A DNA stretch of 64,000 nucleotides from Nakazawaea peltata. Taxonomy: Eukaryota; Ascomycota; Pichiomycetes; Alaninales; Pachysolenaceae. Below the pieces are notes generated by a model that worked only from the letters and a program-made list of their open reading frames with translations, ran no database searches and was not told the DNA's origin. Made by a program: the position numbers and the translations under genes. The stretch spans positions 434,001 through 498,000 of the forward strand of contig BCGQ01000008.1 in NCBI GenBank assembly GCA_001599355.1. The letters run 5' to 3'. This document shows positions 1 to 50,925 of the stretch, in pieces. Numbering within the stretch: the first letter of the stretch is position 1; every line of letters begins with the position of its first letter.

Positions 1-2835
1 TTTGAAAATGGCGCTTCTAGCGACGATAGCGCCGATGAGGCTCTGGAAAATGGCTCTAATGACACCCTGCAACCACCGGAAGACTCAGAAGACGTTGTTT
101 TGTACGAAGATAAACAACATTATGCATCTCTCACTGAGGCGTTTGGCCCTGATGTCGAGACAATCGTCCTGACACAAGATGCTCAAGACATAAACGTGCC
201 ATTGGTGGCTCCTGCCGCTGATAGGACCGCCCACCAGTTACAAGAGCTTCCTGGTGACCTCCCACAAACAACATATTCAAAGCCTTATATGGTAGAGCTC
301 GCGAAGATCCCAGAAAGAGTACGTAACGTAGCCATAATTGGGGCCATGCATTCAGGAAAGACTTCTTTGATAGACGTCTTGATCCACTCGACTCATCCGG
401 GACTTGAGTCCACCTCCAGATACACAGATTGTCAAAAGTTAGCATATGATCGTGGAATATCCTTGAAACTGACCCTAATGACCCTCTTGGCAACCACCTC
501 CGATTACAATAAGTCCCGTTCCATCGTTGCTAATTTGATCGATACTCCAGGGCATTGTAATTTCATGGGGGAGGTACTGGCGGCACAGGCTGCTGCTGAT
601 GGTGTCGTAATATGTTTAGATGTGACAGATGGTATCACACCTACCGACAAGTTGCTCATCGAATCATGTATTCAACAGAATCTCCCATTAACGTTCGTCT
701 TAAATAAGATCGATCGTTTGATTTTGGAACTCAGGTTACCTCCACTGGATATGTATGCTAAATTAAGACATGTAGTCGATTCTATCAACTCTACTGTTCA
801 ACAATACATGACTCCAGAGTATAAGTATATCGAAAACTCGCATTTCAGCCCAGAATTGGACAATGTATGCTTCAGTTCTGCTCTTTATGAGTTCAATTTC
901 ACTATTTCAAGCTTCAACCACACTTTCTATGCGGACATGCCACTTAAAACATCCAAATTATGGGGAGATTATTATTACATTGGGGGTAAATTGACTAAGA
1001 AACTGGATTCTGCCTCAGTTGCTGACCGTTCTTTCGTAAAATTCATCTTAGAACCTCTTTATAAAATATTTACTAATACTTTGGTGAAGAATAGTGGAGA
1101 ATTACAACAATTTCTTGCCACAAACTTTGATTTCCACATCAAAGACAAAGAATTATTCAAATTGGACTCCCAAACCCTCTTGAAATATGTATTAAGTGGG
1201 ATTTTTACCCCTTCTCAAGGGTTTGTCGATCTCTTAGAGGGGTTACCTGCGCCAAATAGCAGTATAGTATCGTTACCTGATGGTTCTTCACCAGATCTCC
1301 TCGTCCATATCTCAAAATTAATCGACACCGTCGACAGTAAACGATTCTACGCCCAAATTAAAGTCATTAAAGGTGTATTAAAGGTAGGAGATTCAGTAAC
1401 AATCTTAGGACAAAACTATAAAGATGATGAAGATGAGAAAATTGACCAAGAATTAGTAAAGAAATTGTTCATAAATTGTGGTCGGTATAAAATTCCAGTC
1501 CAAGAATTATCTGCTGGCAGCGTTGGATTGATGATGAGTGATAATTTGGATCTGTTTTTGACTCATACTGGGACTATCATTGATTCTAAGTGTGACCCTC
1601 AAGAAGTCCACTCAGAATTGCTTCAAAGACCTCTTAAAATCGTAGTTGAACCAGTGTTCAAAGTAGCCATTGAACCCAAAAAACCTTCAGATCTCCATAA
1701 ATTACTTGAAGGTTTGCGTAAAGTGGCTCGTTCTTATATAGGATGTGAAGTTAAAGTTGAAGAAAGTGGTGAACATGTGGTTATAGGACCTGGCGAGTTG
1801 TTCATGGACTGTCTTCTTCATGATTTACGTAAATTATACACCGATATCGACATCAAAGTCAGCGATCCGATGACAAAATTTGCCGAGACTTGTGAAATCG
1901 AATCAACAGTTAGAGTACCTGTGAAATCTAGTAATGGGCTCAACGAAATAAGTATTGTAGTTGAGCCAATGGAGCCAGAATTGGTTAGAGATTGTCATGA
2001 CGGACTTCTTTCCGATCCAAATTTGTCTAATCCTCGTAAACTTCTGAAGGTTTTAAGAGAAGTTTACGGATGGGATTCATTACTGGCTCGTTCAGTATGG
2101 TCTTTTGCATCTGGAGACTCCGGATCCAAATATCCTAATATGCTTTTGGATGACACTCTTCCGGATGAAGTTGACAAATCTCGTTTACTTCAATTAAAAA
2201 GCTTTATTGTCCAGGGATTCCAATGGGCTACTAGAGAGGGACCTCTTTGTGGAGAACCTGTTACAAACGTGAAATTCAAGATCATGGATTGTAAATTACT
2301 GGTGGATAGTATTGACTGCAACGGTGGTCAGATTATCCCCATGGTCCGTAATGCCTGCTATCTGCTGATTCTTTTACTGCGTCCAAGAGTATTAGAACCA
2401 GTTTATACTTTGGATTTAGTAGTCAAAATGAGTAGTAGCGATGAAGAAGTGTTAGCTCGTGGTTTAGATGAGATGGTATCACGTAGAAGAGGTCATGTAG
2501 CAGCTCGTCCTTATTTAGTTCCTCTGACTCCATTATATAGATATGAACTGAAGATCCCAGTGTTAGATTCTGTCGGTTTAGAAACTGATATCAGATTGAA
2601 AACTCAAGGTCAACTGATGTGTTACATGTGGAATACTAAATCAGGATGGTGGCAGCTTCCTGGAGATCCATTGGACTCACAAGTACCATTACCTCCGTTG
2701 AGACCTGTTCCTTATAAATCTTTACTGAGAGATTGTGTTCTTAAGACAAGACGTCGTAAAGGTCTTCATGGAGAGCCTAGTTTGGAGAGATATGTATCAG
2801 CTGAGATTTATGAAGGGTTGAGAGATATAATTTGA
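1..2835 (+). CDS. SNU114: U5 snRNP GTPase Snu114 (EF-2-like), 5' end cut by window edge
   Basis: EF-2-like GTPase of the U5 snRNP that controls spliceosome activation and disassembly in the nucleus. The frame is open from base 1, so the start codon lies outside the window; 944 codons plus stop are present. G1 (GAMHSGKT) is at nt 340-363, G3 (DTPGH) at 541-555 and G4 (NKID) at 703-714. EF-2-type domains follow, including the KVEESGEHVVIGPGELFMDC stretch. The C-terminus carries the conserved KTRRRKG signature and YVSAE(I/L)Y, which match yeast and human orthologues. The visible N-terminus is acidic, as in the family. CTG codons in the C-terminal half (for example in DSL-x-ARS) fall at Ala positions of the orthologues. 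Family assignment is very secure; only the first residues are missing. Confidence 0.96.
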   Translation, partial: FENGASSDDSADEALENGSNDTLQPPEDSEDVVLYEDKQHYASLTEAFGPDVETIVLTQDAQDINVPLVAPAADRTAHQLQELPGDLPQTTYSKPYMVELAKIPERVRNVAIIGAMHSGKTSLIDVLIHSTHPGLESTSRYTDCQKLAYDRGISLKLTLMTLLATTSDYNKSRSIVANLIDTPGHCNFMGEVLAAQAAADGVVICLDVTDGITPTDKLLIESCIQQNLPLTFVLNKIDRLILELRLPPLDMYAKLRHVVDSINSTVQQYMTPEYKYIENSHFSPELDNVCFSSALYEFNFTISSFNHTFYADMPLKTSKLWGDYYYIGGKLTKKLDSASVADRSFVKFILEPLYKIFTNTLVKNSGELQQFLATNFDFHIKDKELFKLDSQTLLKYVLSGIFTPSQGFVDLLEGLPAPNSSIVSLPDGSSPDLLVHISKLIDTVDSKRFYAQIKVIKGVLKVGDSVTILGQNYKDDEDEKIDQELVKKLFINCGRYKIPVQELSAGSVGLMMSDNLDLFLTHTGTIIDSKCDPQEVHSELLQRPLKIVVEPVFKVAIEPKKPSDLHKLLEGLRKVARSYIGCEVKVEESGEHVVIGPGELFMDCLLHDLRKLYTDIDIKVSDPMTKFAETCEIESTVRVPVKSSNGLNEISIVVEPMEPELVRDCHDGLLSDPNLSNPRKLLKVLREVYGWDSLLARSVWSFASGDSGSKYPNMLLDDTLPDEVDKSRLLQLKSFIVQGFQWATREGPLCGEPVTNVKFKIMDCKLLVDSIDCNGGQIIPMVRNACYLLILLLRPRVLEPVYTLDLVVKMSSSDEEVLARGLDEMVSRRRGHVAARPYLVPLTPLYRYELKIPVLDSVGLETDIRLKTQGQLMCYMWNTKSGWWQLPGDPLDSQVPLPPLRPVPYKSLLRDCVLKTRRRKGLHGEPSLERYVSAEIYEGLRDII

Positions 2836-4537: not shown

Positions 4538-5752
4538 ATGGTGGCCGAGAACGAAAACGAGATCAACCGTGTACCGGACTTTGAATTGTCCCAGAAACAC
4601 TTTGTTTTGAAGAGAGGCGATGGAGTCGGTCACGCTCTGATGTTACTGGAGCTCTTGGAGACCGTCAAAACCGAGAATTTGGGTCCTTATTACCATTTCC
4701 TTTATCACAATTTGAAAGTGCCGGGTATTGAGTGGGATCAGTCTTTGTATGACTCCATGGTAGCTGCTAATGAGAAACAGGTGTCCGAATTCAAGGATCA
4801 AATCAAGGCTAAAGAGGAGGAAGATGAAGGAGAACTTGAACTTTTGAGTACATGGACCCTGTTGGGAGAATATTACGCCAAGATTGGTGACCGTGCCAAT
4901 CTGGTGGAGCTGTTACGTAAGCTGCATGATTTACTGCCGAGCACTGGAACCAAGATCGATCTCATCTTGACTATTCTGAGAATCGGATTCTTTTACGATG
5001 ACTACGAGTTCATTAAGAAGACTTTAGATGAGCTGAATCTGTTGATTGAAAAGGGTGGAGATTGGGAACGTAAGAACCGTTATAAGACCTACTTGGGTAT
5101 ATATCTCATGTCGACTAGAAGCTTTACAGAGCTGTCCAAGTTACTTATTGACTCTTTACTGACCTTCACGTCTACTGAATTGACCTCCTACGAAAATGTT
5201 GCCAAGTACAGTTTGATCACAGGAGCTGTTCTGTTAAGTAGAGCTGATTTGAAGAAAAAATTGATCGATTCTCCAGAGATTTTGGCCATCCTTGGTGCTG
5301 GTCAAGGTGGATTACAACCTATTTATGACTTGATTTCCAGTGTATACTTCTCTGAGTATGGATCATTCTTCGAGCATTTGATCGCTACCAATGACTCCAT
5401 CCTCTTACAGGACAAATACTTGGCTCTGCATGCCTCTTTCTACTTACGTGAAATGAGAGTCAGACTGTACCTGCAATTATTGGAATCATACAAGTCATTG
5501 TCGTTGAAATCGATGCTGGAACAGTTCAAAGTCAGTGTTGCCTTTTTGGACGCCGATTTAGTCAAATTCATCCCAAATAAGAAGTTGAACTGTGTCATCG
5601 ACAAAGTAAATGGCATCATCGAGACCAATAGACCAGACAACAAGAACAACCAGTACCATCTCTTGATCAAGAACGGAGATAGCTTGTTGACCAAGTTGCA
5701 AAAATACGGTGCTGCTGTCAAGTTGAGTGGTGCTGAACAGGTTTCTGTATAG
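4538..5752 (+). CDS. RPN7: 26S proteasome regulatory subunit Rpn7
   Basis: Lid subunit of the 19S proteasome regulatory particle. The 404-aa protein has TPR-like helical repeats in its N-terminal two thirds (WTLLGEYYAKIGD, GGDWERKNRYKTYLGIY). A PCI domain follows at about residues 210-380, with the family strings LLESYKSLSLKSM, FIPNKKLNCVIDKVNGI and ETNRPDNKN. Length matches the family. CTG codons at 5465-5467 and 5471-5473 (VR-x-Y-x-QLLESY), and the one in KSM-x-EQF, align with Ala in human or S. cerevisiae Rpn7. Upstream, GGGGGCAAA (4417-4425) is one base off the Rpn4/PACE box GGTGGCAAA and could be a proteasome-gene control site (weak). Confidence 0.96.
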   Translation: MVAENENEINRVPDFELSQKHFVLKRGDGVGHALMLLELLETVKTENLGPYYHFLYHNLKVPGIEWDQSLYDSMVAANEKQVSEFKDQIKAKEEEDEGELELLSTWTLLGEYYAKIGDRANLVELLRKLHDLLPSTGTKIDLILTILRIGFFYDDYEFIKKTLDELNLLIEKGGDWERKNRYKTYLGIYLMSTRSFTELSKLLIDSLLTFTSTELTSYENVAKYSLITGAVLLSRADLKKKLIDSPEILAILGAGQGGLQPIYDLISSVYFSEYGSFFEHLIATNDSILLQDKYLALHASFYLREMRVRLYLQLLESYKSLSLKSMLEQFKVSVAFLDADLVKFIPNKKLNCVIDKVNGIIETNRPDNKNNQYHLLIKNGDSLLTKLQKYGAAVKLSGAEQVSV

Positions 5753-7123: not shown

Positions 7124-8815
7124 ATGGTTCACTTAGGTCCAAAGAAACCACAGCACAGAAAGGTATGTTATCATTTTTATATAGGTACGGCGGAGCCCGA
7201 GGGCGCTATTGGTGAAGAGGTAGTTTGAAATATCGTATAGAGCCTCCAAGGTTTATTGCGATACGCTCAATGATTGAGCAATTTTCGTATATATCAATTA
7301 TCTGTGTGTGCCAGCTCAATGCCAATATTGGGTTCCATTGCACGACGGCCCCCGTTACCCCACAACTAATATTTGGTCCACGGACATTTACTAACTCCCA
7401 CCTTATAGGGCTCCATGGCCGATGTCCCAAGAGACTTGCTTAACCAAATCCATGCCATCGAGACTTTGTTCACCGTTACTCCTCACAAATTGAAGCAAAT
7501 TACCGAGCACTTCATTACCGAATTAGACAAGGGTTTGAGTGTTGGTGGAGGTAACATTCCTATGATTCCAGGTTGGGTTATGGACTTCCCAGACGGAACT
7601 GAGAAGGGTGATTACTTGGCCATTGACTTGGGAGGAACTAACTTGAGAGTTGTTTTGGTCAAATTGGGTGGTGACAGAACTTTCGACACCACTCAATCTA
7701 AGTACCTGTTGCCTCTGTCCATGAGAACCGGTACTGCCGACGATTTGTTCGACTTCATTGCCGAATGTTTGCTGAAGTTTGTTCACGAGGAATTCCCAGA
7801 AGGTGTCTCTGCCCCATTGCCATTGGGTTTCACTTTCTCTTACCCAGCTTCTCAAGACCTGATTAACGAAGGTTTCTTGCAAAGATGGACCAAGGGTTTC
7901 GACATTGACGGTGTTGAAGGTCACAACGTTGTCCCAATGTTGCAAGACGCCATTAAGAAGAAGGACATCCCAATTGAGATCGTTGCTTTGATTAACGATA
8001 CCACCGGTACCTTGGTTGCCTCTATGTACACTGATGAGAAGGCCTTGATGGGTTTGATCTTCGGTACTGGTGTCAACGGTGCCTACTACGACGTTGTTAA
8101 GGACGTTCCAAAGATCCAAGGTAAGTTGCCAGAGGATATCACCGGTGATATGCCAATGGCCATCAACTGTGAGTACGGATCTTATGACAACGAACATGCT
8201 ACCTTACCAAGAACCAAATACGATGTTCAAATTGACGAAGAGTCTCCAAGACCAGGTCAACAAACTTACGAGAAGATGATTGCTGGCTACTACTTGGGTG
8301 AGATCTTGAGATTGATTCTTTTGGACTTGCACAAGGACGGTTACGTCTTCGAAGGTCAAGATATCTCCAAGTTGCACGAGAGTTACGTCATGGACACCTC
8401 TTACCCAGCTAGAATTGAGGAGGACCCATTCGAAAACTTGAGTGAGGTTGAAGCTTTGTTCAAGGGTTTGGGTATCCAAACTACCGAAGCCGAGAGAAAG
8501 TTGATCAGAAGAGTCTGTGAGGTCATTGCTACCAGAGCTTCCAGATTGTCTATCTGTGGTGTTGCTGCCATCTGTAAGAAGAGAGGTTACACCGAAGGTC
8601 ACTGTGCTGCCGACGGTTCCGTCTTCAACAAGTACCCAGGTTTCCAAGAGAGAGCTCTGCAAGGTTTGAGAGATATCTTCGACTGGCCAGAGGACCAACC
8701 AGCTCCTATTACCTTGGTTCAAGCCGAGGATGGTAGTGGTGTTGGTGCTGCTGTTATTGCTGCTTTGACCGAGAAGAGATTGGCCAAGGGTCTTTCTGTT
8801 GGTATTAAGAAATAA
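7124..8815 (+). CDS. HXK2: Hexokinase (Hxk2-type), two exons
   Basis: Phosphorylates glucose and fructose with ATP, the first step of glycolysis; the Hxk2 type also acts in glucose repression. Exon 1 is 7124-7162 (13 codons) and exon 2 is 7409-8815, giving 481 aa. Visible motifs are DLGGTNLR (ATP phosphate site), GFTFSYPASQ and LQRWTKGF (sugar site), ALINDTTGTL, GTGVNGAYY, MDTSYPARIE and AEDGSGVGAA. The N-terminus MVHLGPKKPQHRKGSM is almost identical to S. cerevisiae Hxk2 and includes the decapeptide, with Ser15, implicated there in Mig1 binding and nuclear shuttling. The intron splits this decapeptide after K13. CTG at 8657-8659 aligns with an Ala of Hxk1. A start at Met 16 (7415) would remove the regulatory tail. 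Confidence 0.97.
7163..7408 (+). other. Intron of hexokinase gene
   Basis: 246-nt phase-0 intron with donor GTATGT (7163), branch site TACTAAC (7389-7395) and acceptor TAG (7406-7408). Joining at these sites restores the conserved Hxk2 N-terminus exactly. TGCACGAC at 7339-7346 inside it is a copy of the recurrent GTCGTGYA word. Confidence 0.93.
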
Positions 8816-10491: not shown

Positions 10492-11749
10492 ATGTCTGAA
10501 CAGCCTATTGGTAAGTTTCTCTTAGGAGGCCTTTTAACCGCCGCCCCCAACCGCTGATCTACCCGATTCTCCACGATACTAACACTTTATAGTCCTCGAC
10601 CAGGGTACTGGATTCGTCAAAATTGGCCGTGGAGGTACCAACTTCCCGGATTACACTTTCCCCAGCATTGTTGGTAGACCAATTCTTAGAGCCGAAGAAC
10701 GGGCCGGCACTGTAGGCGACATTGAGATCAAAGATATCATGTGTGGAGACGAACTGAGTCTGGTCAGAACGCTGTTACAAGTATCTTATCCGATGGAGAA
10801 TGGTATTATCAAGAATTGGGAAGATATGGAACATTTATGGGACTATGCTTTCTATGAGAAGATGCAAATGAACACTCAAGGGCGTAAGGTGCTTTTAACC
10901 GAGCCTCCGATGAACCCGGTCAAGAACCGTGAACAAATGTGTGAGGTAATGTTTGAAAAATATCAATTCTCAGGTGTTTATGTACTGATTCAGCTGGTGT
11001 TACTGTTGTATCTGCAAGGTTTATCATCTGGTGTGGTTGTAGACTCGGGAGATGGTGTCACTCACATTGTTCCTGTTTATGAGAGTGTTGTATTGAACCA
11101 TTTAACTCGTCGTTTGGACGTTGCCGGTCGTGATGTGACTAGAAACTTGATCAAATTGCTTTTACGTCGTGGTTATCTGTTCAACAGAACCGCTGATTTC
11201 GAAACCATTCGTCAAATGAAGGAGAAATTGTGTTATGTTTCTTACGATTTGGATTTCGATTTGAAATTGAGTAATGAAACTACTACTTTGGTCAGAAATT
11301 ATGAATTACCAGATGGTAGAGTAGTTAAAGTGGGAAGTGAAAGATTCGAGCTGCTGGAATGTCTTTTCCAACCAAGTCTTGTCGATGTAGAACAACCAGG
11401 TGTAGGAGAGATGTTATTCAGCACTATTCAACTGCTGGATCTCGACATTAGATCCACTTTATTCAAACAAATTGTACTTTCAGGTGGTTCCTCGATGTAT
11501 CCAGGTTTACCATCCCGTTTAGAGAAAGAATTGAAACAGCAATGGTTCACCAAGGTACTTCACGGAGACAGTTCCAGATTGGACAAATTCAAGGTGAGGA
11601 TCGAAGACCCTCCTCGTAGAAGACATATGGTATTCATTGGAGGTGCCGTCTTGGCCAATATCATGGCCGATAAAGATCATATGTGGGTGACGAAACAAGA
11701 ATGGGAAGAATACGGAGCTGAACTGTTGAAGAAATTAGGACCTAGATAA
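10492..11749 (+). CDS. ARP2: Actin-related protein 2 (Arp2/3 complex), two exons
   Basis: ATP-binding subunit of the Arp2/3 complex that nucleates branched actin at cortical patches during endocytosis. Exon 1 is 10492-10510 and exon 2 is 10593-11749; spliced length is 391 aa, equal to my memory of S. cerevisiae Arp2. Motifs: [82 protein letters not shown] and [20 protein letters not shown]. The strongest code evidence in the window is here. CTG codons at 10985, 10994, 11003 and 11012 stand at the four Ala of GVYVAIQAVLALYAQGL. Further CTGs match Ala in GDEAS, GYAFN, RFEAPE and IQAAD. Read as Leu, this ultra-conserved protein would carry many unprecedented substitutions. Confidence 0.98.
10511..10592 (+). 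other. Intron of ARP2
   Basis: 82-nt phase-1 intron with donor GTAAGT (10511), branch TACTAAC (10577-10583) and acceptor TAG ending at 10592. Splicing makes the Val codon of [10 protein letters not shown]. Confidence 0.94.
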
Positions 11750-18077: not shown

Positions 18078-19592
18078 ATGTTACAATTGAGAAGGAATCA
18101 GGTCCTGAGTAGCATCTTAAAAGGACTGGGAGGCCTGATTGGTCCGGATTTGACCCGTAGATGGTTACTGACCGCAGCCGCCGGGAACGCAGCAGCCGCC
18201 GACCCGCCTAAGCGGACCTCTTATGGGGGGTTGAAAGATCAGGACCGTATCTTCCAGAACTTGTACGAAAATTACGGACATGACTTAAAATCGGCCAAGA
18301 AATATGGTGATTGGTACAAGACCAAGGAAATCTTGTTGAAAGGTGATAAATGGATCATCGATCAAGGTAAAGCTTCTGGGCTTCGTGGTCGTGGAGGTGC
18401 CGGTTTCCCAAGTGGGTTGAAATGGTCATTCATGAACCCTCCTGGATGGGAGAAGAACCCTGGACCTCGTTACTTGGTCGTCAATGCCGATGAAGGTGAA
18501 CCAGGAACTTGTAAAGATCGTGAGATCATTCGTAAGACCCCACACAAACTTGTAGAAGGATGTCTTGTTGTGGGACGTGCTATGAACGCAACACTGGCTT
18601 ACATTTATATTCGTGGGGAGTTTTACAATGAGCTGGTCATTTTACAGACCCTGATCAATGAACTGTATCGTGATGGATTGATTGGTAAGAATGCCTGTGG
18701 TTCTGGATACGACTTTGACGTGTACATTCACCGTGGACTGGGTGCCTATGTTTGTGGAGAAGAGACTCTGTTGATCGAGTCTTTGGAGGGAAAGGCAGGT
18801 AAGCCTCGTTTAAAGCCACCTTTCCCAGCTGCTGTTGGATTATTTGGTCGTCCTTCTACTGTCACTAACGTTGAGACCGTTGCAGTTGCTCCAACGATCA
18901 TGAGACGTGGACCTGAATGGTTTGCTTCCTTTGGAAGAGAACGTAATTCCGGTACTAAATTGTTCTGTATCTCTGGACATGTCAATGAACCTTGTACTGT
19001 AGAGGAAGAGATGTCAATTCCATTGAGAGAATTGATCGAAAAGCACTGTGGTGGAGTTAAAGGTGGATGGGATAATTTATTAGGAATTATTCCTGGTGGA
19101 TCCTCAGTTCCAATCTTACCAAAGAAGATCTGTGATGATGTCTTGATGGACTACGATGCCTTGAAAGATGTAGGATCCGGTTTAGGTACTCTGGCAGTCA
19201 TTGTAATGAACAAGCAGACCGATGTTATCCGTGCTATTCAAAGATTGTCTCTGTTCTACAAACATGAATCTTGTGGTCAATGTACTCCATGTCGTGAAGG
19301 TACTACTTTTGTATCGAAAGTGATGGACAGATTTGTCACTGGTCAAGCCAAGCTGAAGGAGATCGATATGATCTGGGAATTGACCAAGGAGATCGAAGGT
19401 CATACCATCTGTGCTTTGGGAGATGCTGCTGCTTGGCCTGTTCAAGGATTAATTCGTCAATTTAGACCAGAATTGGAGCTGCGTATGGAACAATTCCAGA
19501 AAGAACATGCCAAATTACATCCTGGTGGATGGGTTGATGGTTCGAAGGTTATGGATGGTGTTGTCGATGGGTCACCAGTTCCACACCATTAA
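18078..19592 (+). CDS. NUO51: NADH:ubiquinone oxidoreductase 51-kDa subunit (NDUFV1, complex I)
   Basis: Flavoprotein subunit of mitochondrial complex I; it binds NADH, FMN and iron-sulfur cluster N3. The 504-aa protein starts with a basic presequence (residues 1-40). Motifs: [13 protein letters not shown] (NADH), [14 protein letters not shown] (FMN), GAYVCGEET, and [12 protein letters not shown] plus HTICALGD for the 4Fe-4S cysteines. Presence of complex I excludes Saccharomycetaceae. CTG codons at 18594, 18633, 18663, 18738, 18768 and 19191 align with Ala in human NDUFV1 (RAAYIYIR, YNEAS, REAYE, GAGAYICG, EETALIE, GTAAVIV). These six are independent evidence for CUG-Ala decoding. Confidence 0.98.
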
Positions 19593-20274: not shown

Positions 20275-23200
20275 ATGAGCAGTGGGAGAGTGGGGCATTC
20301 GCGGACTATATCGTCGGAAGCACCACAAAAGGACTCATCTCAGTCATCCGGGACTGTGATAAGGTACAGTTTGACACCTCCGGCCGGAGTTTACCCCTTG
20401 AATGGCGAGGACCCAACTCTTAGACAAGGTGGAAGTTCAACTGAGCTGCAATTACGTCTGGGCCAATCACTGGCGGCTCAAGTTCCGGACCTGGGAACTT
20501 CACAAGGATCTATGCAACAACCCAGCAATACATCAGGACCCCAAAATCAATCCCTGCAGGCTCAGCAACAATCCTCACATCAAAGACTCCCTGTACAACT
20601 GCTGTCGATCCAAAATCTGACTGGAAATGTATCTAATGGGGTAAAATCTGCCCATTTCAAAGCTACAGGATCCACTGGGACTCACCCAGGTCATCTGGCA
20701 TCATCTAAAGAGTACATATACCCCGACTTTTATCGTTGGGAATACGATCCAGGCCAAGATAAGATCATGCAAACCTATCTCCAGAAAGGTTACTTTGATC
20801 CACCATCTGTAGGGAACGAATTATTGAGTGCCAAGCCAGCCATATCACTGCTTCTTCATAAACAAGACTCTGACGCTTCGGAAACTTCAAAAAAATTGGA
20901 GATTCTTAGCGATACAGCCGTCAAACTGATGCAATACCGTAGAAAATGTAACAGACTGTCGATGAAATACACCTATAAACCTCCTCCAAGAGTGACATTG
21001 ACCGAAATGAAGAAAGATCTTTGGCTCAAGAACCTTCTGGACCCCGATATCCCTTTGAATCGTCTCTCAAGGACGATTCCACATGGTATCAGGAACAAAG
21101 TCTTACTTGAACAATGTTGCACGAAGAAAATCCCCATCACTCGACTGCTTTGGTTCGTAAAATGTGTAGGAACTAACGAATTAAGAGGTCTTAGACGTAA
21201 AGGACCAACTTCTGCCTCTTCTGGAGCTTCCTCAGCTCCTTCTTCGACTTCAGCAACCTCCAAATCTTTGGAACTGAACTGGATTCGAGACTGGACCATC
21301 CAGGTGACCGAGTTTCTCCAGAAATTAGAACGTGATAGTTTCGTAGATCCAACTAGTACATGGAAAGGCCACCTTAACTACATGATAAAATTCTGTTCCC
21401 AACTATATTTCACCGATCTCATCAATAAAGAGGTGTTCTTAGGTTGGATAGTGGGATTTCTTAAACAGGCTTGCAGTGACGAAAGGCTTACCCAAGATTC
21501 ACCAACAAGTGAATTCAAAATAGTACCTATCCACTTACTTTTCGTCAAGTTATTCTGGTTTAAAATCATTAAAATGGATCATCTTGCCAAAGATATCGCA
21601 GAAACTTTACTATGGATCCATTATAAGGTCCAGGACGGTAAGACGATCAAGGCAGAATCCACTTCAATGACCCAAATGACTTCTAAAATTACGAAAACCG
21701 TCGAATTCTTAGTCTTACACTTATTTTATTACAATGCTTCGTCATTTATTATGTCGAATCGATGGGTTCTTTTGAAACCAGTACTTAAAAAGATCCTCGA
21801 TTTGGATGATGAGCTTGTATCTCTTCAATTTGACCTTATCACCTACCGTAATGAGTCGTTACTTGTCAATTCTGACTTTGACTTGTCTTCGCCAGAGCTT
21901 TCGCTCCTCCGTAAAGTGGACAGTTTCAGGTCTCTTGAGAATCTCGACGAATTAATGGCTCTTGTGTACGATAATTCAAGAGATAATGGTAGTAGATCTC
22001 GTTCCAAAGCAGATCTCCACTCTTGGAAGACCCATTTACTTACCATTTTGGAGTGGAGTTGCTCTCGTTACCGTAAGAACTCTTCCAGCCATATATATTT
22101 AGCATGCTCGGTAGCCAAAGGTGCTATGAATCGTAAAAGAAGTAAACAGAGCTCTAAGAAGCTCAAAATGGAGCTCGAGTCTTTAATTCTCGATTTCATT
22201 TACTCTTCCAATGACAAATTCACCAATGAAATCTACTCGGACTCCATTTCAGATCTCCCGATAGATCTTGACCTGTTTCTTCACCTTGTAAACGAACTAT
22301 ATAACCTGAAGCTTTTCACGGTAAGTTCTTATCTTCGTCGGTTGATTTCTTCGGGAGTTATTTACCTTCCGAATGCTCAATCCAAGACGATGCTTCATAT
22401 TTCGATTTTACAGAGCTTGCCGATTGTAAATAATCCCCAAAGTGTCTCGATTTTGAAATCTTTGAGTGGGGACTCAACTTTCCAACTCAAGACAGTACAA
22501 ATTTACGACCAAAGTAAGGAGAGTGTTGACCAGATTTTGGATTGGATAGTAGATCCTTCCTCCAGCTCTGGCAATCGTGTTTGCTCTGGTATCAACGGTC
22601 TAGCTGGACTTAGTCATGGGCTAGGGTACCTTTGTTCCGGATACTTTGTGGATGAGTTAAAAAAACGGCTCTCAAGTTCTCCTCAAATCACTTTTAACGG
22701 TGAGAAGCTTGCTGTATGCCATAAACTCTTCACCGTATTTAATTGTCAGTCAAAATTGTTCGTAGAAGTCTTGGAATTGGTTCTTTGCAATGAGAATCGA
22801 ATTGCCGATTCCCTGGCTTTAAAATTCGTATGTAATTTAGTCCAATGCCATTTTGAAACGATAATTCTGATCCCAAGAGATGATTTTGATACTTCTGGAG
22901 AAAATGTGACTCCTTCTACACCAGCAGGAGACTCAAATACAAGTTCAAATACCGCAAAATCCTCTTTATTTGCCCATTTACTCCAGAATATCATCTCTCA
23001 ACTGCATTCGATCTCCAAAACAGACCCGAACTATAGTCCAAACCTCTCGGAATTCTGGAAATTTGCCATGTCAAAGGTGTCTCCAGATGATATGGTCCTC
23101 CGTACCGAGTTGGAAATACTTTCCCGTCTGAAGGAGAATGATGGCAGCCAAGAAGTATCTTCAAATGAGTCTCAAGGCCCCGATTTGAGACCTGTTTTGG

Positions 23201-30749: not shown

Positions 30750-31793
30750 ATGACCGAGACTCAAAAGGTAGCGCTGAAACCAGCAAGGCTCCAGGTTGAC
30801 CCGGAATCCATCGATAGCGATGGAAAACCACCTCAAACCGGAACTATCTTCAATATTTGGTACTCGAAATGGGCCGGGGGCGACTCAAATGACCTGCGAA
30901 TGCAAACTCATGCCAAAACAAGGGTTAATATCAAGCGAGATTCAGGATACACTCGTCTGGACAAATATGGACCTCAAAAATCCGGCTCCGACCCGATCTT
31001 TTGTCTCTATTTTGCCAGAGGCTCCTGTTGTATGGGCAAGAAATGTGACTATCTTCACCGTCTCCCCTCCGATGACGACAGACTTCGGTCATCGACTCAA
31101 GATTGCTTCGGACGTGATAAGTTTGCCGATTACCGTGACGATATGGGTGGTGTGGGTAATTTCAACAAGATCAATAAGACTTTATACATTGGTCGGATTA
31201 ATAATATTCATGCTGAGGATATTGAGGTGCAAGTGATGAAGAATTTCAAGGAATTTGGCGATATAGAACATGTCAGGGTGGTGAGAGATAAGAATATACT
31301 GTTTGTACGGTATAAAAATGAGTTGAATGCCCAGTTTGCTAAGGAAGCTATGGCTCATCAGTCATTGGATAAGAATAATGAGAATGAGGTATTGAATATT
31401 CGATGGGCTAATGATGATCCAGATCCTGAACTGAGGAAGAGGAATAAGAGGAGACTTGAGGAGGAGACTATGGAGAGACTGAAGAAGTTACTTCTGAGTG
31501 TAGAGAGGAAGAGTATTGAGGGTACCGAGGGGGCTGAAGAGGAGGAGCTTGAAGAGACGCAAGAATCCCAGGAGACTAAACCTATCAATGGAACTGGTGT
31601 ATCAGAAGATGATGGCTCATCTTCTGGTCCCTCCAATGCTCCCTCCAATGCCCCTTCCCTCATAACTAACTCCTCCATAGGTGGATTGCATATTTTAAAA
31701 CAACTACAACAAGCTAAACAACTGCAACAAGATCAAAAACCATCTTTACTGCTGCTGATGGCCGGTTATGATTCCAGCAGTGACGAAGAATAG
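30750..31793 (+). CDS. CWC2: Pre-mRNA splicing factor Cwc2
   Basis: RNA-binding protein of the Prp19-associated complex that contacts U6 snRNA and the intron at the spliceosome core. The 347-aa protein has an N-terminal Torus region (IFNIWYSKWAGGD) and a CCCH zinc finger, CLYFARGSCCMGKKCDYLH (about residues 88-106). A linker GRDKFADYRDDMGGVGNF and an RRM follow (about 143-225; TLYIGRI as RNP2, NILFVRYKN as RNP1). The acidic, Ser/Gln-rich tail ends in AGYDSSSDEE, typical of fungal Cwc2. It is convergent with ESS1. Confidence 0.96.
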   Translation: MTETQKVALKPARLQVDPESIDSDGKPPQTGTIFNIWYSKWAGGDSNDLRMQTHAKTRVNIKRDSGYTRLDKYGPQKSGSDPIFCLYFARGSCCMGKKCDYLHRLPSDDDRLRSSTQDCFGRDKFADYRDDMGGVGNFNKINKTLYIGRINNIHAEDIEVQVMKNFKEFGDIEHVRVVRDKNILFVRYKNELNAQFAKEAMAHQSLDKNNENEVLNIRWANDDPDPELRKRNKRRLEEETMERLKKLLLSVERKSIEGTEGAEEEELEETQESQETKPINGTGVSEDDGSSSGPSNAPSNAPSLITNSSIGGLHILKQLQQAKQLQQDQKPSLLLLMAGYDSSSDEE

Positions 31794-33946: not shown

Positions 33947-36409
33947 CTATAAAGTAGTTCCAAAGCCTGCGAAATCGAATTGTTCTTCGATTGGTGCTGG
34001 TGCAGAGTAGTTGAGCTTGATTCTTAATTTGATTTTAGCTCCTATCTTACCTGAGATGTGCAAACTTTGTTTGATCGAATCACCTGGATGAGATAATGAG
34101 TTGGAATTCGATGCTGAGATCTTCAATTTTTGGGTTTTTGGTACTGCAATTAACAAGGCAATGTTTGAGATTGGGGTAGAAGTTTTGGAGACGATGTAGG
34201 CCTCGATCAGCAGTTCACCATTACCGATTGACTTGGTGTGGAAACCAATTTTAATTGATGAGGATTCATGGGCGATTAATAAATCTGATGGGATAGTCAG
34301 GGTAGAAGAAATTGGCAGGGAAGGAAGGGAAACCAGAGCAGGCACAGAAGGCAGAGAAGTAGATCCAAATGATAAATCTAAAATAGACAGCAGTGGTTGA
34401 GCCACAGGTCCCGACCCAAATATATCAGATAATAAATCAACTGTAGCTTGAGGTGGTTCCAATGAATTTCCACTCGACTTCACAGGCAGATCATCTCCCA
34501 TCAAATCCAATAACAAATCTTCTGTTGTAGTAGCAGCACCACCAGAAGCAAACCTTTGTGATGGTTGTTGTTTCCCCTTAGTCAAAGAAACACTCTCCCT
34601 CTTCTTCAATGGAGGCAGTGGCATTTTCTCTAATAATCCACGTTTCAAAGTGTCAGGTTGATGGAAGATCTCTAAATACTCGATTGATCTGATCTGGATC
34701 TCCAAATTAGCATTATTATTCTGCTGGATCAACAATTGTCTTAATCTTTCGATATCAGAAGCCGACTGTAAACGAGTAGATAACTTCAAGGCCAGAGTCA
34801 ATGAATAAGCAAGCAATGTGTCGACATTGGATTGATCTTTATAAAAGGAAGTAGAGTCAATTAAAGTGACGAGCAAATCGGTGATTTGCAGCTCGGAGTA
34901 TTTCTCCTTCAATAACTCTCCAAACTCTCCAAGACACCATACTAAGACCAAATTGAAACCATACTCCTGTAATTGCAGAGCATTCTTACCCATAGATGCC
35001 TCAGTTAATTGTAAAACAAGATACTTAGTCAACTCCCGATCTTGTAATTGAATAATTAACAGTAAAATACTCGAGATAATATCGCTTGTGACATAATTTC
35101 CAGCCACTTGTAACATCTGGATTAAAGTATCGAAATGCCACTTAGGACTAGGGGAGAATTTGTCACACAGTAAAGCCAATTGAGTAGTGACGTAGCTCTT
35201 TAATTCGATGTCTGAATTCTCCAAGAAAGTAAGTAATTCCTTAGTGATGATACGGATATTTTGTTCATTCATTATTCCAAATGATAACTCCAACAGACGT
35301 CTACGAATGGAAATGTCAGCGTCTGAAAGACATCCCAAGATGGTTCCACGGTGTCTTTGAACCAGCTGTGGTTCATAGCTCATCACTGTAAGTAATGTGT
35401 TCAAAGCTACGTATCTAGTATTATTATCTTTCAGCAGTAAGAAATTACCCAAGATATTGACACCCAATACTTTTAAAGATGGGTCAGAATTGATATGGAA
35501 GATAGTCTTGACGACTTCATACAAGTTAGTGTTACCGGCACTTTTATCGGACTTGATTTTAGAGGCAGCACGAGTCAAAATATCATTGAACATTTCCAAT
35601 TGAGGACCATCTTCAACGGTCTCAAGCAAATTCCGAAGCGTCTGTAACAAAGCACAGAAAAAGAACGGATCTGGACAATTAGGCGAGTCATATTCAGGAG
35701 AATGTAAACTTCCTTGTAAGACTTCAACAACCAGACGTAACCGTTGGAATAATTTAGGAGCAACTTCATTTATAAGCATCTCATGAGCCGATTCATCTAC
35801 CTGATAAATGACATCTATGAGCTTCAAAGTACCAAGAAGAACACCACGATTCTTATCGGAAGCCAAAGACACCAATTTAGGACTGAAAATATCACTTAAA
35901 TCGGGGTCCTTGGCCACAAGACGAGCCGCACACATGGCCAGTTTCTTACGCAAATATGGACTTGGCATATCGATGATTCTCTCGATATCCGTGTACAAAT
36001 CACGTGCCAATTCCGGGGAGGCGATGTTTCCCAATGTGGTGACCAGTAATCCGACGACATACTGATTGGAATGGTTCATATCATTGTTCAATGAGTTGGT
36101 CAATAAAGTCAAAACCTCCTGATCTTCATCCAAGAGTAAACTCAGCAGCATATACCCGAGTCTCTTGTCGATGAACTTCTGTGACAGTAACAATTTGATG
36201 CATTCTACCTGGCCAAAGTGAGTAGGCTCTCCCAAGATGTATAAATACAACAATTTTGAGATCAAGATTCGGCGTGATAATTGGTCTAAATTCACGTCGC
36301 GGAAATGGGTTCTGATTTTGGCGGATTCTTTACGAATTGTGCTGCGTTCTTCCAGGATTGTTTTGGCCGATCTTACCGACCGGATGAATGATTTGAGGGA
36401 AGAGACCAT
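33947..36409 (-). CDS. APL4: AP-1 clathrin adaptor gamma subunit Apl4
   Basis: Large subunit of the AP-1 adaptor, which sorts cargo between trans-Golgi and endosomes. The 820-aa protein has an adaptin trunk (about residues 1-560) with FIRSVRSAKTILEERSTIRKESAKIR, EPTHFGQVECIKLL, DKRLGYM, LLTNSLNNDMNHSNQYVVGL and SPYLRKKLAMCAARLV. A Ser/Pro-rich hinge includes LLSDIFG-type motifs, and a gamma-ear domain follows (about 700-820). CTGs in KLL-x-SQKF (36185-36187) and GYM-xx-S align with Ala of human gamma-adaptin (KLIASQKF, GYLGAML). The start is the first ATG at 36407-36409. The gene is convergent with YOP1 across 40 bp. Confidence 0.95.
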   Translation of the reverse strand: MVSSLKSFIRSVRSAKTILEERSTIRKESAKIRTHFRDVNLDQLSRRILISKLLYLYILGEPTHFGQVECIKLLLSQKFIDKRLGYMLLSLLLDEDQEVLTLLTNSLNNDMNHSNQYVVGLLVTTLGNIASPELARDLYTDIERIIDMPSPYLRKKLAMCAARLVAKDPDLSDIFSPKLVSLASDKNRGVLLGTLKLIDVIYQVDESAHEMLINEVAPKLFQRLRLVVEVLQGSLHSPEYDSPNCPDPFFFCALLQTLRNLLETVEDGPQLEMFNDILTRAASKIKSDKSAGNTNLYEVVKTIFHINSDPSLKVLGVNILGNFLLLKDNNTRYVALNTLLTVMSYEPQLVQRHRGTILGCLSDADISIRRRLLELSFGIMNEQNIRIITKELLTFLENSDIELKSYVTTQLALLCDKFSPSPKWHFDTLIQMLQVAGNYVTSDIISSILLLIIQLQDRELTKYLVLQLTEASMGKNALQLQEYGFNLVLVWCLGEFGELLKEKYSELQITDLLVTLIDSTSFYKDQSNVDTLLAYSLTLALKLSTRLQSASDIERLRQLLIQQNNNANLEIQIRSIEYLEIFHQPDTLKRGLLEKMPLPPLKKRESVSLTKGKQQPSQRFASGGAATTTEDLLLDLMGDDLPVKSSGNSLEPPQATVDLLSDIFGSGPVAQPLLSILDLSFGSTSLPSVPALVSLPSLPISSTLTIPSDLLIAHESSSIKIGFHTKSIGNGELLIEAYIVSKTSTPISNIALLIAVPKTQKLKISASNSNSLSHPGDSIKQSLHISGKIGAKIKLRIKLNYSAPAPIEEQFDFAGFGTTL

Positions 36410-37520
36410 GGTTGGAGGTGGGTGATTGAGGGATGGTGGGTGGTTGGCGGTTAATGGTGGAGTTGTTTAGCGCTGATGGATAAGAATGTTTTGGACAGCG
36501 CAGGGGAGGATGATTACTTTTTAAGGAAATTCTGTATGGGGAAATAATTGGAATAATTGGAGAGGGGATATGGTTGAGCAAATAATTAAAGTATGAGTAC
36601 CTCCTAGGAGGAAGGTAGGAGAAAAAGTAGAAAAAATAGAGAAGAAAGGGAAGGGGAAAATAGGAGGAGTGGGAGAGTAGAGGGAGAGGGAGGGGAGGAG
36701 AGAAGAGGAGAGGAAAGGAGCAGAGGGGGGGTAAAGAGAGAAGAGTAGGAGAGAAGTAGGATAAGGAAGGAATGATGCATTGGAAACTAAGAGAAATTAC
36801 AACAAATAAGCAGAAGTATGTCCAATGACATGATTATCGAGTTAAGATATATGAAATATATTTTCTGATGTATAAATTATGTAGAGAGTTTAATCTGTGT
36901 ATCACTGCAGTAATCAAACTACTTATTTAGATTACCAGAATAAATATTTTAATTTTCGTTAAGTAAGAGCGAAATTTAAGTAGTTAACGAAAATTAAGTA
37001 GGGGACCTTTTACTGCGTTGACAGATTGATGTACAAAAAAGAGCGGGTGCAACGGTTGGTACGAAATAGGGGCAGAAAATGGACAGAATGGGCACAAAAG
37101 GGACTTAACATAACAAGAGGAGGGGGCAAGTTCAGAGGATGTAACTCACTCAACATACCAAAAACTCTTGACCATTTGATATCCAATAAGCTCAAGCCCA
37201 ATCTCAATCTCCAATAAGCTCCAATCAGCTCTCTACACTTTTCTCTCTTTCTACACTCTCCCCTCCTCCCCTCCCCTTACTACCCTCTACACTACTCTCC
37301 CTCTCTTTCTGCCCTCTTTCTGCTGTTTATGCCCTCTTTTCTGTCCCTTTTTTGCTCACGCGTTCACTGCGCACGCTCCCCTCGCTTGTCCACTCCCCTG
37401 AGCAAAATACAATTATGCACCCCATTAACCAAACTAATCCCCCAACCAGATCATTCACCATACACTTTTAAACCATCATACACTTCGCATCACCAAACAC
37501 CCACCAACCCATCACCTGTC
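36410..37520. other. Divergent intergenic region APL4/ECM21 with polypurine and polypyrimidine tracts
   Basis: About 1.1 kb. 36601-36745 is nearly pure purine on the plus strand. At 37225-37325 the composition flips to C/T-rich before the arrestin gene. An in-frame ATG at 37329 could lengthen ECM21 by 64 residues but lies in this pyrimidine-rich leader. No other gene seen. Confidence 0.5.
36601..36745 (+). repeat. Polypurine tract (~145 bp)
   Basis: Almost uninterrupted G/A with GGAGGGAGAG-like simple repeats and few pyrimidines. It is a candidate triplex-forming or nucleosome-refractory element. Confidence 0.7.
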
Positions 37521-44960: not shown

Positions 44961-46103
44961 TTAAGCCTTCAAAGAAGAAGCTCTTCTAGCCTTCTTGGCC
45001 TCCTTTCTTTCGTGCAATCTAGCAGCCAATAATTGTTGGTATTCGGCAGCCTGTTCTCTTTGGGCTTGGGCATTTCTGACCTTCAAGGACTTCAAGTGAC
45101 GCTTTCTTTGCAAGACTTGTGGGGTGACCAATCTTTGGATCTTTGGAGCCTTGGTGTACTTCTTCTCACCCTTGACAACCTCACGTCTGATAACGTATTG
45201 TCTAACGTCATCCTCCTTGGTCAAACCGAAGAACTTTCTGATGTGGTTAGCTCTCTTTGGACCCAATCTCTTTGGAACTTGAGTGTCGGTGACACCCTCG
45301 ATCTCTTGTTCACCGGTCTTGGTGATAACCAAGGACAAGACAGCAAGATCTGGACCAACGATACAACCTCTGACGGACTTTCTCTTACGTTCACCAGTTC
45401 TTCTTGGTCTGTAACAAGAGTGACCCTTGGCCAACAACAATCTAACTCTGGTTGGGTGCAAGACACCTTGCTTCATTGGGAAACCTTGCTTGTCGTTACC
45501 ACCGGTAATCTTGAAGGTGTAACCCTTGAACTCGTCAGAGACCAAGTCACCCTCAACTTCTTGGCCCATTCTCTTCTCGTAGAATGGACGCAACTTGTGT
45601 TCGTCATCGATTTCGACGGTCTTTTGGGTACCGTTAGCTGGGTAAGCAATGTTCAACTGTAAAATAGTTAGTAAAAATTTTCTTAGACAAATCGTTAAAG
45701 CAGATTGAGGGATGTGTATGATGAGTGACTGGGATTTCTCTGAAGGTGGTCAAAGACGAGGAATATAATCATCTCAAGTCAAGATTGATCCAACTTTGTC
45801 CATACATTCCAGAAACTCCGAATATATTCATCTAAACTGATGGCTGTTATCCAGAGTCTCCAATCAAGTACGACAGATGAACCATATACTTCTTGACCAT
45901 ATTGCTTTGATCTCGTCACTCTATTACTGGATTTCATTTGCTTGTCTTTTGTATGTTTATTTCCCTATGATTGAACTATAATCGCCAATTTGAATTAAGC
46001 GCCGATGAAACCATCCCCAGTGTCACGACCTCACCTTCAGAGGACCGGATCTTCCATCATCGCCATCATTCTGCTTGTCTTATGTGCTGATACATACCTT
46101 CAT
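44961..46103 (-). CDS. RPS6: 40S ribosomal protein S6 (eS6), two exons
   Basis: Small-subunit ribosomal protein eS6, the S6-kinase/TOR target. Exon 1 is just ATGAAG (complement 46098-46103); exon 2 is complement 44961-45656. The product is 233 aa beginning [20 protein letters not shown]. It matches S. cerevisiae Rps6 through [77 protein letters not shown] and [13 protein letters not shown]. The tail ends RRASSLKA, which retains the phosphorylated serines. A six-nt first exon at this place is shared with S. cerevisiae RPS6A/B. Codon use is strongly biased; I saw no CTG in the coding strand. Confidence 0.97.
45657..46097 (-). other. Intron of RPS6 (441 nt)
   Basis: Donor GTATGT (complement of 46092-46097), branch TACTAAC (complement of 45667-45673), acceptor CAG (complement of 45657-45659). 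The longest intron of the window, as usual for yeast ribosomal protein genes. Confidence 0.93.
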
Positions 46104-49116: not shown

Positions 49117-49914
49117 TTATAACCGATAAGGGGTAGATGAAAGAGAAATCCCGCACCAATCTGAGATTTGAAGCAGCAAATCACGGGCATCATTCGTGGT
49201 TTCTTTTGTGTTCCCCATATTAAGAGCTCCTTTCATATGTCCTTTCAATTGAGGATTTACATCGTAAGGGACTAACAGCCCCACTATCAGGAGACTCGAT
49301 TCCAGCGAACTGAGGATTTCATCATATACAAGTAATTCACCGTAGCAATTCTTCAAAATAAACGTCTGAAGGTCCGGATACAGCGTGTCAAGATTCGTTA
49401 GCACTCGCTGGGTAACTTTGCCGTATACTTTGGCAAAATAATCGGATCCTGCAGCCAATGTTGTCTGTTCAGAGTGTTTTTGAGGCAATGATCCCCGCTC
49501 TTGAATCGTTTTATGTAGATATGCATATCGCCGAGAAGTTATTCCCCCCTCATCAGGAATTTTCTCCGAGCTATTCGCGTCATCATCCATTCTCAGCAAC
49601 AGTGAAAGCGAATTGATCAGTCTGGGCACTCCTGTTATCACCATCAGCTTTAAAATCAGTTCTTGTAATTGCAGTCTTAACCTAAGTGCTGCCATCTCAT
49701 GGTTATTAGTGTTTATTTGAATGTTTGACCCTCCGAATGACTCCTCTTTCACTGCTCCTTCTCCCATCTGCTGTGATAACAGCGCTCTATAAACATTAGG
49801 GATCTCCTCCGCCATATTGCATGCAGTAAGCAGCGAACATGCAACAATAGGCCAACTCTTCTTCAAGTGGCTGTACTTCGAGCTCATCGCAGCTATCCTT
49901 GCAGGCCCTAACAT
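49117..49914 (-). CDS. AhpD/carboxymuconolactone-decarboxylase-like protein
   Basis: 265-aa protein resembling fungal proteins with an AhpD/CMD-like helical fold. The recognisable part is C-terminal: YFAKVYGKVTQRVLTNLDTLYPDLQTFILKNCYGELLVYDEILSSLESSLLIVG, then VPYDVNPQLKGHMKGALNMGNTKET. CTG in IVG-x-LVPYD, read as Ala, gives the GALVP-like turn of relatives. No CxxC pair typical of active AhpD is visible, so peroxidase activity is doubtful. The first ATG is at 49912-49914 (MLGPARIAA); a second at residue 10 is equally possible, and an upstream extension needs TTG. Function unknown; it may be peroxisomal or mitochondrial in other fungi. Confidence 0.65.
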   Translation of the reverse strand: MLGPARIAAMSSKYSHLKKSWPIVACSLLTACNMAEEIPNVYRALLSQQMGEGAVKEESFGGSNIQINTNNHEMAALRLRLQLQELILKLMVITGVPRLINSLSLLLRMDDDANSSEKIPDEGGITSRRYAYLHKTIQERGSLPQKHSEQTTLAAGSDYFAKVYGKVTQRVLTNLDTLYPDLQTFILKNCYGELLVYDEILSSLESSLLIVGLLVPYDVNPQLKGHMKGALNMGNTKETTNDARDLLLQISDWCGISLSSTPYRL

Positions 49915-50058: not shown

Positions 50059-50925
50059 CTATACATTTGCCAGTGCAAGCATCTTGGCAGTGAGAGAGGT
50101 CACGATCTCCAACAGAAGTGTGGAGCAATCCATAATTGAGAGCAGATCGATCGATAATCCACCAGCTTTAGAAATTTGGATGATCTCTCTATTTTTGTTC
50201 AAAGTTAAGGTGAGAGATCCTGAACGGAGTTGTTCTTCCACCAGAGTCAGGTCGATCACTACCAACTCATTGTTCAACTGGCCTTTAATATTTTCGGCAA
50301 GATGCGATGATGGGTTGTAGAATGAAAATGTTACACAAACTGGTATATGAAGGATTGATAACGGTACAGGGTTACGCTCTTCAAATGGATGCAAAATGAT
50401 AGTCTCTCCACCATCTTCTATTGTAACGTCTCGTTTCTTATAGTGAAGCAACAGAGTCATCACCAGAAGACACGATGCGTCGATAAAGTTTCCGTCAAAA
50501 TTAAGGAATTTAACGTCACAGCGCACACTCCAACATTTACGGCCGGCAACAATACAAAGGGACTCCAAATCCAACGCATTGGACCGCCTCACCAGCTTTT
50601 CGATCAATCTGGAAATCATAACCTCATCCTCTCCTTGTCTGTTGTTCTCAAAGGCTGGAGACAGCATCGAGGTGATCTCGGTGTTGATTTGGAAAATACC
50701 TTCAAATGGACGGTCTTCATATGGCTCGACAACTTCACCTGATACACGAGCAACACATCTTGTATTTCCCAACTGTACATCGACGTAACCAAATTCGTCC
50801 TTTGAAGCCTCGATCTTCACCTCTCTCATAGCTGTTAACTGACGTCCATCTAATCTTTCTCCAGATTTCAAGAGCTCTAAAACGAACTCTTCGTTGTTTT
50901 TACTCACTTCTGCTGGTCTTGACAT
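50059..50925 (-). CDS. RRP45: RNA exosome ring subunit Rrp45
   Basis: RNase PH-like subunit of the exosome ring (PM/Scl-75 in human), working in nuclear and cytoplasmic RNA decay and processing. 288 aa. Signatures: LKSGERLDGR, FGYVDVQLGNTRCVARVSGEV, PYEDRPFEGIFQINTEITSMLSPAFEN, EDEVMISRLIEKLVRRSNALDLESLCIVAGRKCWSVR, DGNFIDASCL, RNPVPLSILHIPVCVTFSFYN and VTLNKNREIIQISKAGG. As in the family, the catalytic residues of bacterial RNase PH are not kept. Start ATG 50923-50925; length near yeast Rrp45 (about 305). Confidence 0.96.
   Translation of the reverse strand: MSRPAEVSKNNEEFVLELLKSGERLDGRQLTAMREVKIEASKDEFGYVDVQLGNTRCVARVSGEVVEPYEDRPFEGIFQINTEITSMLSPAFENNRQGEDEVMISRLIEKLVRRSNALDLESLCIVAGRKCWSVRCDVKFLNFDGNFIDASCLLVMTLLLHYKKRDVTIEDGGETIILHPFEERNPVPLSILHIPVCVTFSFYNPSSHLAENIKGQLNNELVVIDLTLVEEQLRSGSLTLTLNKNREIIQISKAGGLSIDLLSIMDCSTLLLEIVTSLTAKMLALANV

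Follow-up and report, generated by a model that had tools for sequence, protein, structure and literature searches.

How is the codon CUG read in this DNA? The window analysed here, that is, the whole stretch of 64 kb (GC 41.6%), carries yeast-type genes, and an earlier note had proposed from one of them, the gene for ARP2, that CUG is decoded as alanine and that the standard code mistranslates CTG. Judged from the sequence, the source of the window is almost certainly a budding yeast in which CUG stands for alanine in the nuclear code (NCBI table 26). This change of the code, though rare, is already known, from the CUG-Ala clade in the order Alaninales; NCBI places Nakazawaea in this order, in the family Pachysolenaceae, and from the code alone we infer membership of the clade of Pachysolen, Nakazawaea and Peterozyma. 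More unusual than the code is how heavily CUG is used at conserved alanines, which the earlier note missed.

CTG codons of the ARP2 gene

The gene is laid out below with four of its CTG codons; residues facing a CTG are given in the order 6w17/1k8k (PDB), with CTG masked in the alignment.

10492..10510, + strand: ARP2 exon 1, start ATG at 10492, read by eye as ATG TCT GAA CAG CCT ATT G, then GTAAGT
10511..10592, + strand: ARP2 intron, 82 bases, GTAAGT ... TATAG, read by eye
10593..11749, + strand: ARP2 exon 2, frame from 10595, 13 CTG codons, boundaries set by eye
10985..10987, + strand: CTG in GVYVxIQ, facing A/A
10994..10996, + strand: CTG in IQxVL, facing A/A
11003..11005, + strand: CTG in VLxLY, facing S/T
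11012..11014, + strand: CTG in LYxQGL, facing A/A

The predicted splice gives back GTC CTC GAC CAG GGT (VLDQGTGF). With CTG masked, exon 2 matched 6w17, which we take to be ARP2 of S. pombe, at 637.7 bits; the second homologue, 1k8k, is presumably bovine ARP2. Against Pfam Actin, exon 2 scored 313.8, 328.7 and 331.4 bits with CTG as Leu, Ser and Ala, respectively.

In the reading frame from 10595, the CTGs at 10985, 10994, 11003 and 11012 are all in frame, as had been claimed. The further claim that they occupy four invariant alanines of ARP2 holds for 10985, 10994 and 11012 and fails at 11003, and was thus slightly overstated, an exception that the earlier note had itself half-conceded. Alanine had also been read into CTGs of four other motifs. 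Both homologues agree with this at GDEAS (10754), GYAFN (11177) and IQAAD (11432 and 11435), each position being A/A, while the CTG at 11351 in RFEAPE faces C/A and so matches the proposed alanine in 1k8k only. The second CTG in the RFEAPE motif (11354) is opposite Pro in 6w17 and 1k8k. Altogether, the exon-2 CTGs face Ala at 9 of 13 sites in 6w17, at 8 of 13 in 1k8k and at 7 of 13 in both. Chance as the source of these matches was ruled out by the window-wide count, in which Ala lies opposite 49 of 92 CTG sites, while random draws gave no more than 17. Against the alanine reading, a CTG at another ARP2 site (10772) is opposite L/M, placing Ala where the homologues have a large hydrophobic residue; this codon possibly arose via a TTG-to-CTG change.

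Decoding of CTG across the window

For the window-wide count, each CTG was written as X in eight proteins (ARP2, NDUFV1, RPN7, SNU114, RRP45, AP-1 gamma, CWC2 and hexokinase), these were matched to PDB sequences, and the resulting alignments were read out one codon at a time. Besides ARP2, the following genes and ORFs are used here, with Ala counts referring to the best homologue.

289..2835, + strand: SNU114-like GTPase, 15 CTG, 7 of 14 aligned facing Ala
4538..5752, + strand: RPN7 proteasome subunit, 17 CTG, 8 of 17 facing Ala
7415..8815, + strand: hexokinase, just 5 CTG against 32 GCN, 1 of 5 facing Ala
18078..19592, + strand: NDUFV1 (complex I 51 kDa), 14 CTG, 7 of 11 aligned facing Ala
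30750..31793, + strand: CWC2 splicing factor, 11 CTG, 3 of 7 aligned facing Ala
33947..36409, - strand: AP-1 gamma adaptin, 26 CTG, 9 of 17 aligned facing Ala
44961..45569, - strand: ribosomal protein S6 ORF, main exon, which we take to be RPS6, 0 CTG, 14 GCN
49117..49914, - strand: carboxymuconolactone-decarboxylase-like ORF, 13 CTG
50059..50925, - strand: RRP45 exosome subunit, 9 CTG, 5 of 8 aligned facing Ala

At the 92 CTG sites aligned to a best homologue, the opposing residue was A at 49, S at 9, K, N and R at 4 each, L, T, V and G at 3 each, and others at 10. Random draws of 92 sites gave a mean of 6.2 Ala and a maximum of 17 in 10,000 draws. Where a second homologue was read, it had Ala at 24 of 40 CTG sites. 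The proposal that CUG means alanine was thus borne out, with Ala kept at CTG sites in seven of the eight proteins with solved homologues. Like the ARP2 site at 10772, a CTG at CWC2 residue 244 counts against this reading, facing I/V in two homologues.

Decoding as alanine could be mixed with a small fraction of Leu or Ser, through mischarging or a second tRNA. CTG and GCN columns were alike for Ala (opposite CTG at 49/92 sites, opposite GCN at 78/165, p 0.37), for Leu (3/92 versus 6/165, p 1.0) and for Ser (9/92 versus 14/165, p 0.82). In the six of eight genes with two homologues (RRP45 and AP-1 gamma had one each), the 103 positions with Ala in both homologues used CTG 24 times, GCC 24, GCT 23, GCA 4, GCG once and non-Ala codons 27 times. 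Within the same six genes, CTG stood at none of the 160 positions with Leu in both, where about one-fifth would be expected under a leucine meaning (in the eight genes, 20% of all codons for Leu would then be CTG); the 64 Ser/Ser positions held 4 CTG and 4 GCN. Taken together, the likeness of CTG to GCN columns, the 0 of 160 at Leu/Leu positions and the equal counts at Ser/Ser positions leave CTG with no visible Leu or Ser meaning.

Misincorporation of a few per cent is below what such site statistics can detect, and there are precedents in other clades: mischarging of about 3% in Ser1, and the presence of both tRNA genes in the majority of Ser2 species, as described in passages of a 2018 paper (PMC5951914). 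A mixture is nevertheless unlikely here. The columns for CTG cannot be told from those for GCN, and CTG is about as frequent at Ala/Ala as at non-Ala sites, which would be improbable if it inserted a harmful mixture. Minor ambiguity in any case overlaps with the alanine reading, and the two are compatible.

We then scored all residues for each codon with a BLOSUM62 likelihood (the probability of the homologue residue given the codon residue). At the 92 CTG sites, Ala was the best of 20 residues, ahead of Ser by 56.5 bits, of Thr by 84.6 and of Leu by 122.3. Among codons with at least 5 sites, 58 of 59 returned their standard residue, CTG being the sole exception; CGC (n = 4) was also standard, and CTA had a single site (Pro). 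Taken one by one, seven of the eight proteins gave Ala; hexokinase, with K, K, R, D and A opposite its CTGs, gave Lys. A first likelihood, which included a residue background, had returned a non-standard residue for 8 of 61 sense codons (CTA, CTG, CAA, ATT, ATC, ATA, ATG and ACG), because it favoured common residues, and once this had emerged the likelihood given above took its place; Ala came out on top for CTG with either.

The profile test proposed in the earlier note, which asks whether Leu or Ser scores best, was run against Pfam with CTG as Leu (table 1), Ser (table 12) or Ala (table 26). Of 28 gene models, 21 were scored, and the 19 with a domain under all three codes entered the sums, which came to 4383.7 bits for Leu, 4508.7 for Ser and 4620.8 for Ala; Ala thus led Ser by 112 bits and Leu by 237. 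The best code was Ala for 16 of the 19 proteins, Ser for 3 and Leu for none. The rise from Leu through Ser to Ala is seen in RPN7 (176.2, 187.9 and 197.2 bits against Pfam RPN7), NDUFV1 (143.9, 148.1 and 156 against Complex1_51K), AP-1 gamma (389.4, 403.8 and 418.7 against Adaptin_N) and RRP45 (78.8, 90.8 and 96.4 against RNase_PH). Among single domains, GTP_EFTU, Hexokinase_1, Mannosyl_trans3, RNase_H2-Ydr279 and Abhydrolase_1 scored best as Ser, Ydr279_N, 4HBT_3C and MMR_HSR1 best as Leu, and in PepX_C Ala was the lowest of the three; where Ala was not best, the margins were 0.2–1.2 bits. Domains that scored equally under the codes were few and had no informative CTGs. Left out of the sums were overlapping domains and domains missing under some code (SLBB, MMR_HSR1, EFG_C, Cnd1, HEAT_2, TOR1L1_N, three TPR models, PK_Tyr_Ser-Thr, Kdo, 4HBT_3C, five further methyltransferase models, Abhydrolase_1 and Hydrolase_4).

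These scores make it very improbable that CUG is read as serine. In the pooled test Ser comes second, which its likeness to Ala would lead one to expect, and it is best for three Pfam proteins (hexokinase, a mannosyltransferase and an RNase H2 subunit) by at most 0.4 bits. The CUG-Ser code (table 12) was rejected on its deficit of 56.5 bits to Ala over the 92 CTG sites; it also trails by the 112 bits of the Pfam sums, and Ser is no commoner at CTG than at GCN (9/92 versus 14/165). That CUG is read as leucine, with the Ala matches due to chance or fast evolution, is almost inconceivable: Leu is found in some homologue at 5 of 93 aligned CTG sites, and likewise at 7 of 170 GCN sites, whereas the standard code (table 1) is refuted at the sequence level by the absence of CTG from all 160 Leu/Leu positions, Leu lies 122.3 bits below Ala and none of the 19 Pfam proteins scores best with it.

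With alanine as the preferred reading, CUG would be decoded by an alanine tRNA with anticodon CAG. Alanyl-tRNA synthetase could charge such a tRNA because the enzyme recognises the acceptor stem, not the anticodon; its identity element in that stem is G3:U70. Standard tRNA-search runs found no tRNA gene within the 64-kb window, and a relaxed ARAGORN run with 182 candidates was set aside, the number being implausible. In its passages on the Ala clade, the 2018 paper describes a novel CUG-reading tRNA with anticodon CAG, derived from a pre-existing tRNA-Ala gene, and states that neither alanyl- nor seryl-tRNA synthetase depends on specific bases in the anticodon (PMC5951914).

CTG usage and conserved alanines

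Over the 28 ORF-based gene models (15,465 codons including stops), CTG was the highest single Ala codon, just ahead of GCT: 24.5 per 1000 codons, compared with 23.8 for GCT, 14.6 for GCC, 8.9 for GCA and 2.5 for GCG. CTG accounted for 379 of 1149 Ala codons (33%). The error claimed for standard translations thus concerns 379 codons in these models, the standard code giving Leu for about 2.5% of window codons that should be alanine. The correct code matters for annotation: in the ORF at 49117-49914, the sole Pfam domain (CMD) was detected only with CTG as Ala and is otherwise lost. For ORF 37329-41117, no Pfam family was found under any of the three codes. A MED12-like Mediator subunit gene (20275-25329; Pfam Med12) has long glutamine runs, and an ORF nested in it on the opposite strand (24273-24764) carries a cysteine run.

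CTG was as prominent at conserved alanines as elsewhere. Its share of Ala-coded codons was 24/76 at sites with Ala in both homologues, 20/43 with Ala in one and 22/70 with Ala in neither; locally conserved stretches gave 68/179 and the rest 25/84 (p 0.21). By density, the aligned parts of the eight genes had less CTG (25.2 per 1000 codons, 93 of 3697) than the unaligned parts (46.7 per 1000, 17 of 364), in some agreement with what the 2018 paper would predict from its discussion (PMC5951914); the gap narrows when CTG is taken relative to all Ala codons (0.425 unaligned and 0.354 aligned).

Across the 28 genes, CTG use did not correlate significantly with a codon-bias proxy for expression (Spearman -0.34, p 0.073). 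A low CTG share of Ala codons was seen in RPS6 (0/14), hexokinase (5/37) and a GH81-like ORF (3/44), examples chosen post hoc and with uncorrected p values. The RPS6-like ORF (44961-45569) has strongly biased Leu codons (TTG 16/18), and its codon choice suggests that CTG is shunned in very highly expressed genes. The GH81-like ORF (62263-63948), so named on our assumption of its identity, has 3 CTG against 41 GCN despite low codon bias. CUG here behaves as an ordinary, heavily used Ala codon, although a few genes, RPS6 and hexokinase among them, use it little.

These counts raise the possibility, which we regard as evenly balanced, that the reassigned CUG has recovered in this lineage to become one of the leading Ala codons, entering conserved sites as readily as variable ones. 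Since no single synonymous base change joins GCN and CTG, switches at conserved alanines would imply frequent double or rapidly compensated substitutions. CTA is very scarce window-wide (1.9 per 1000 codons), as is GCG (2.5), so that the TTR and CTY codon groups of leucine are nearly disconnected as well.

Comparison with known systems

Like the CUG-Ala clade (Pachysolen, Nakazawaea and Peterozyma; table 26), the window has CUG as alanine, the gene content of a budding yeast and a complex I subunit. The published picture of a reassigned CUG, rare and kept off conserved sites, matches the window poorly. In its discussion, the 2018 paper describes CUG as relatively rare and off well-conserved sites in the clades that changed their code (PMC5951914), whereas CUG in the window is abundant and common at conserved alanines. 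A passage in a 2021 paper likewise states that an earlier analysis points to the codon being rare (PMC8084343). Five CUG-Ala genomes were omitted from a 2019 survey, according to its excerpts (PMC6701816), and a 2024 codon-usage survey handled Alaninales, with CTG avoidance given in its excerpts for Serinales and Ascoideales only (PMC11540330). No genome-wide figure for CUG use in the Ala clade was found in the literature searched, though one may exist. The high CTG use, which rests on 28 genes and not on a genome, departs from the general statements and is thus a lead rather than a proven novelty. If it extends genome-wide, the CUG-Ala clade has at least one lineage in which the new meaning is fully consolidated, and offers a natural test of codon switching between disjoint synonymous sets at conserved residues.

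The CUG-Ser clades share with the window the reassignment of the same codon and, as stated in part of the 2018 paper, a synthetase without need for particular anticodon bases (PMC5951914); they differ in the residue, serine there and alanine here. Serinales and Ascoideales shun their reassigned CTG, by the excerpts of the 2024 survey (PMC11540330), and the window does not.

A further likeness is to serine itself, whose TCN and AGY codons form two synonymous sets with no single synonymous base change between them, and which the abstract of a 2019 paper names as the only amino acid with such split codon sets (PMC6872785). In the window, the split sets are instead those of alanine, GCN and CTG. 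If CUG has indeed recovered as proposed, alanine would join serine in having two disjoint codon sets, and could be used to measure such switches.
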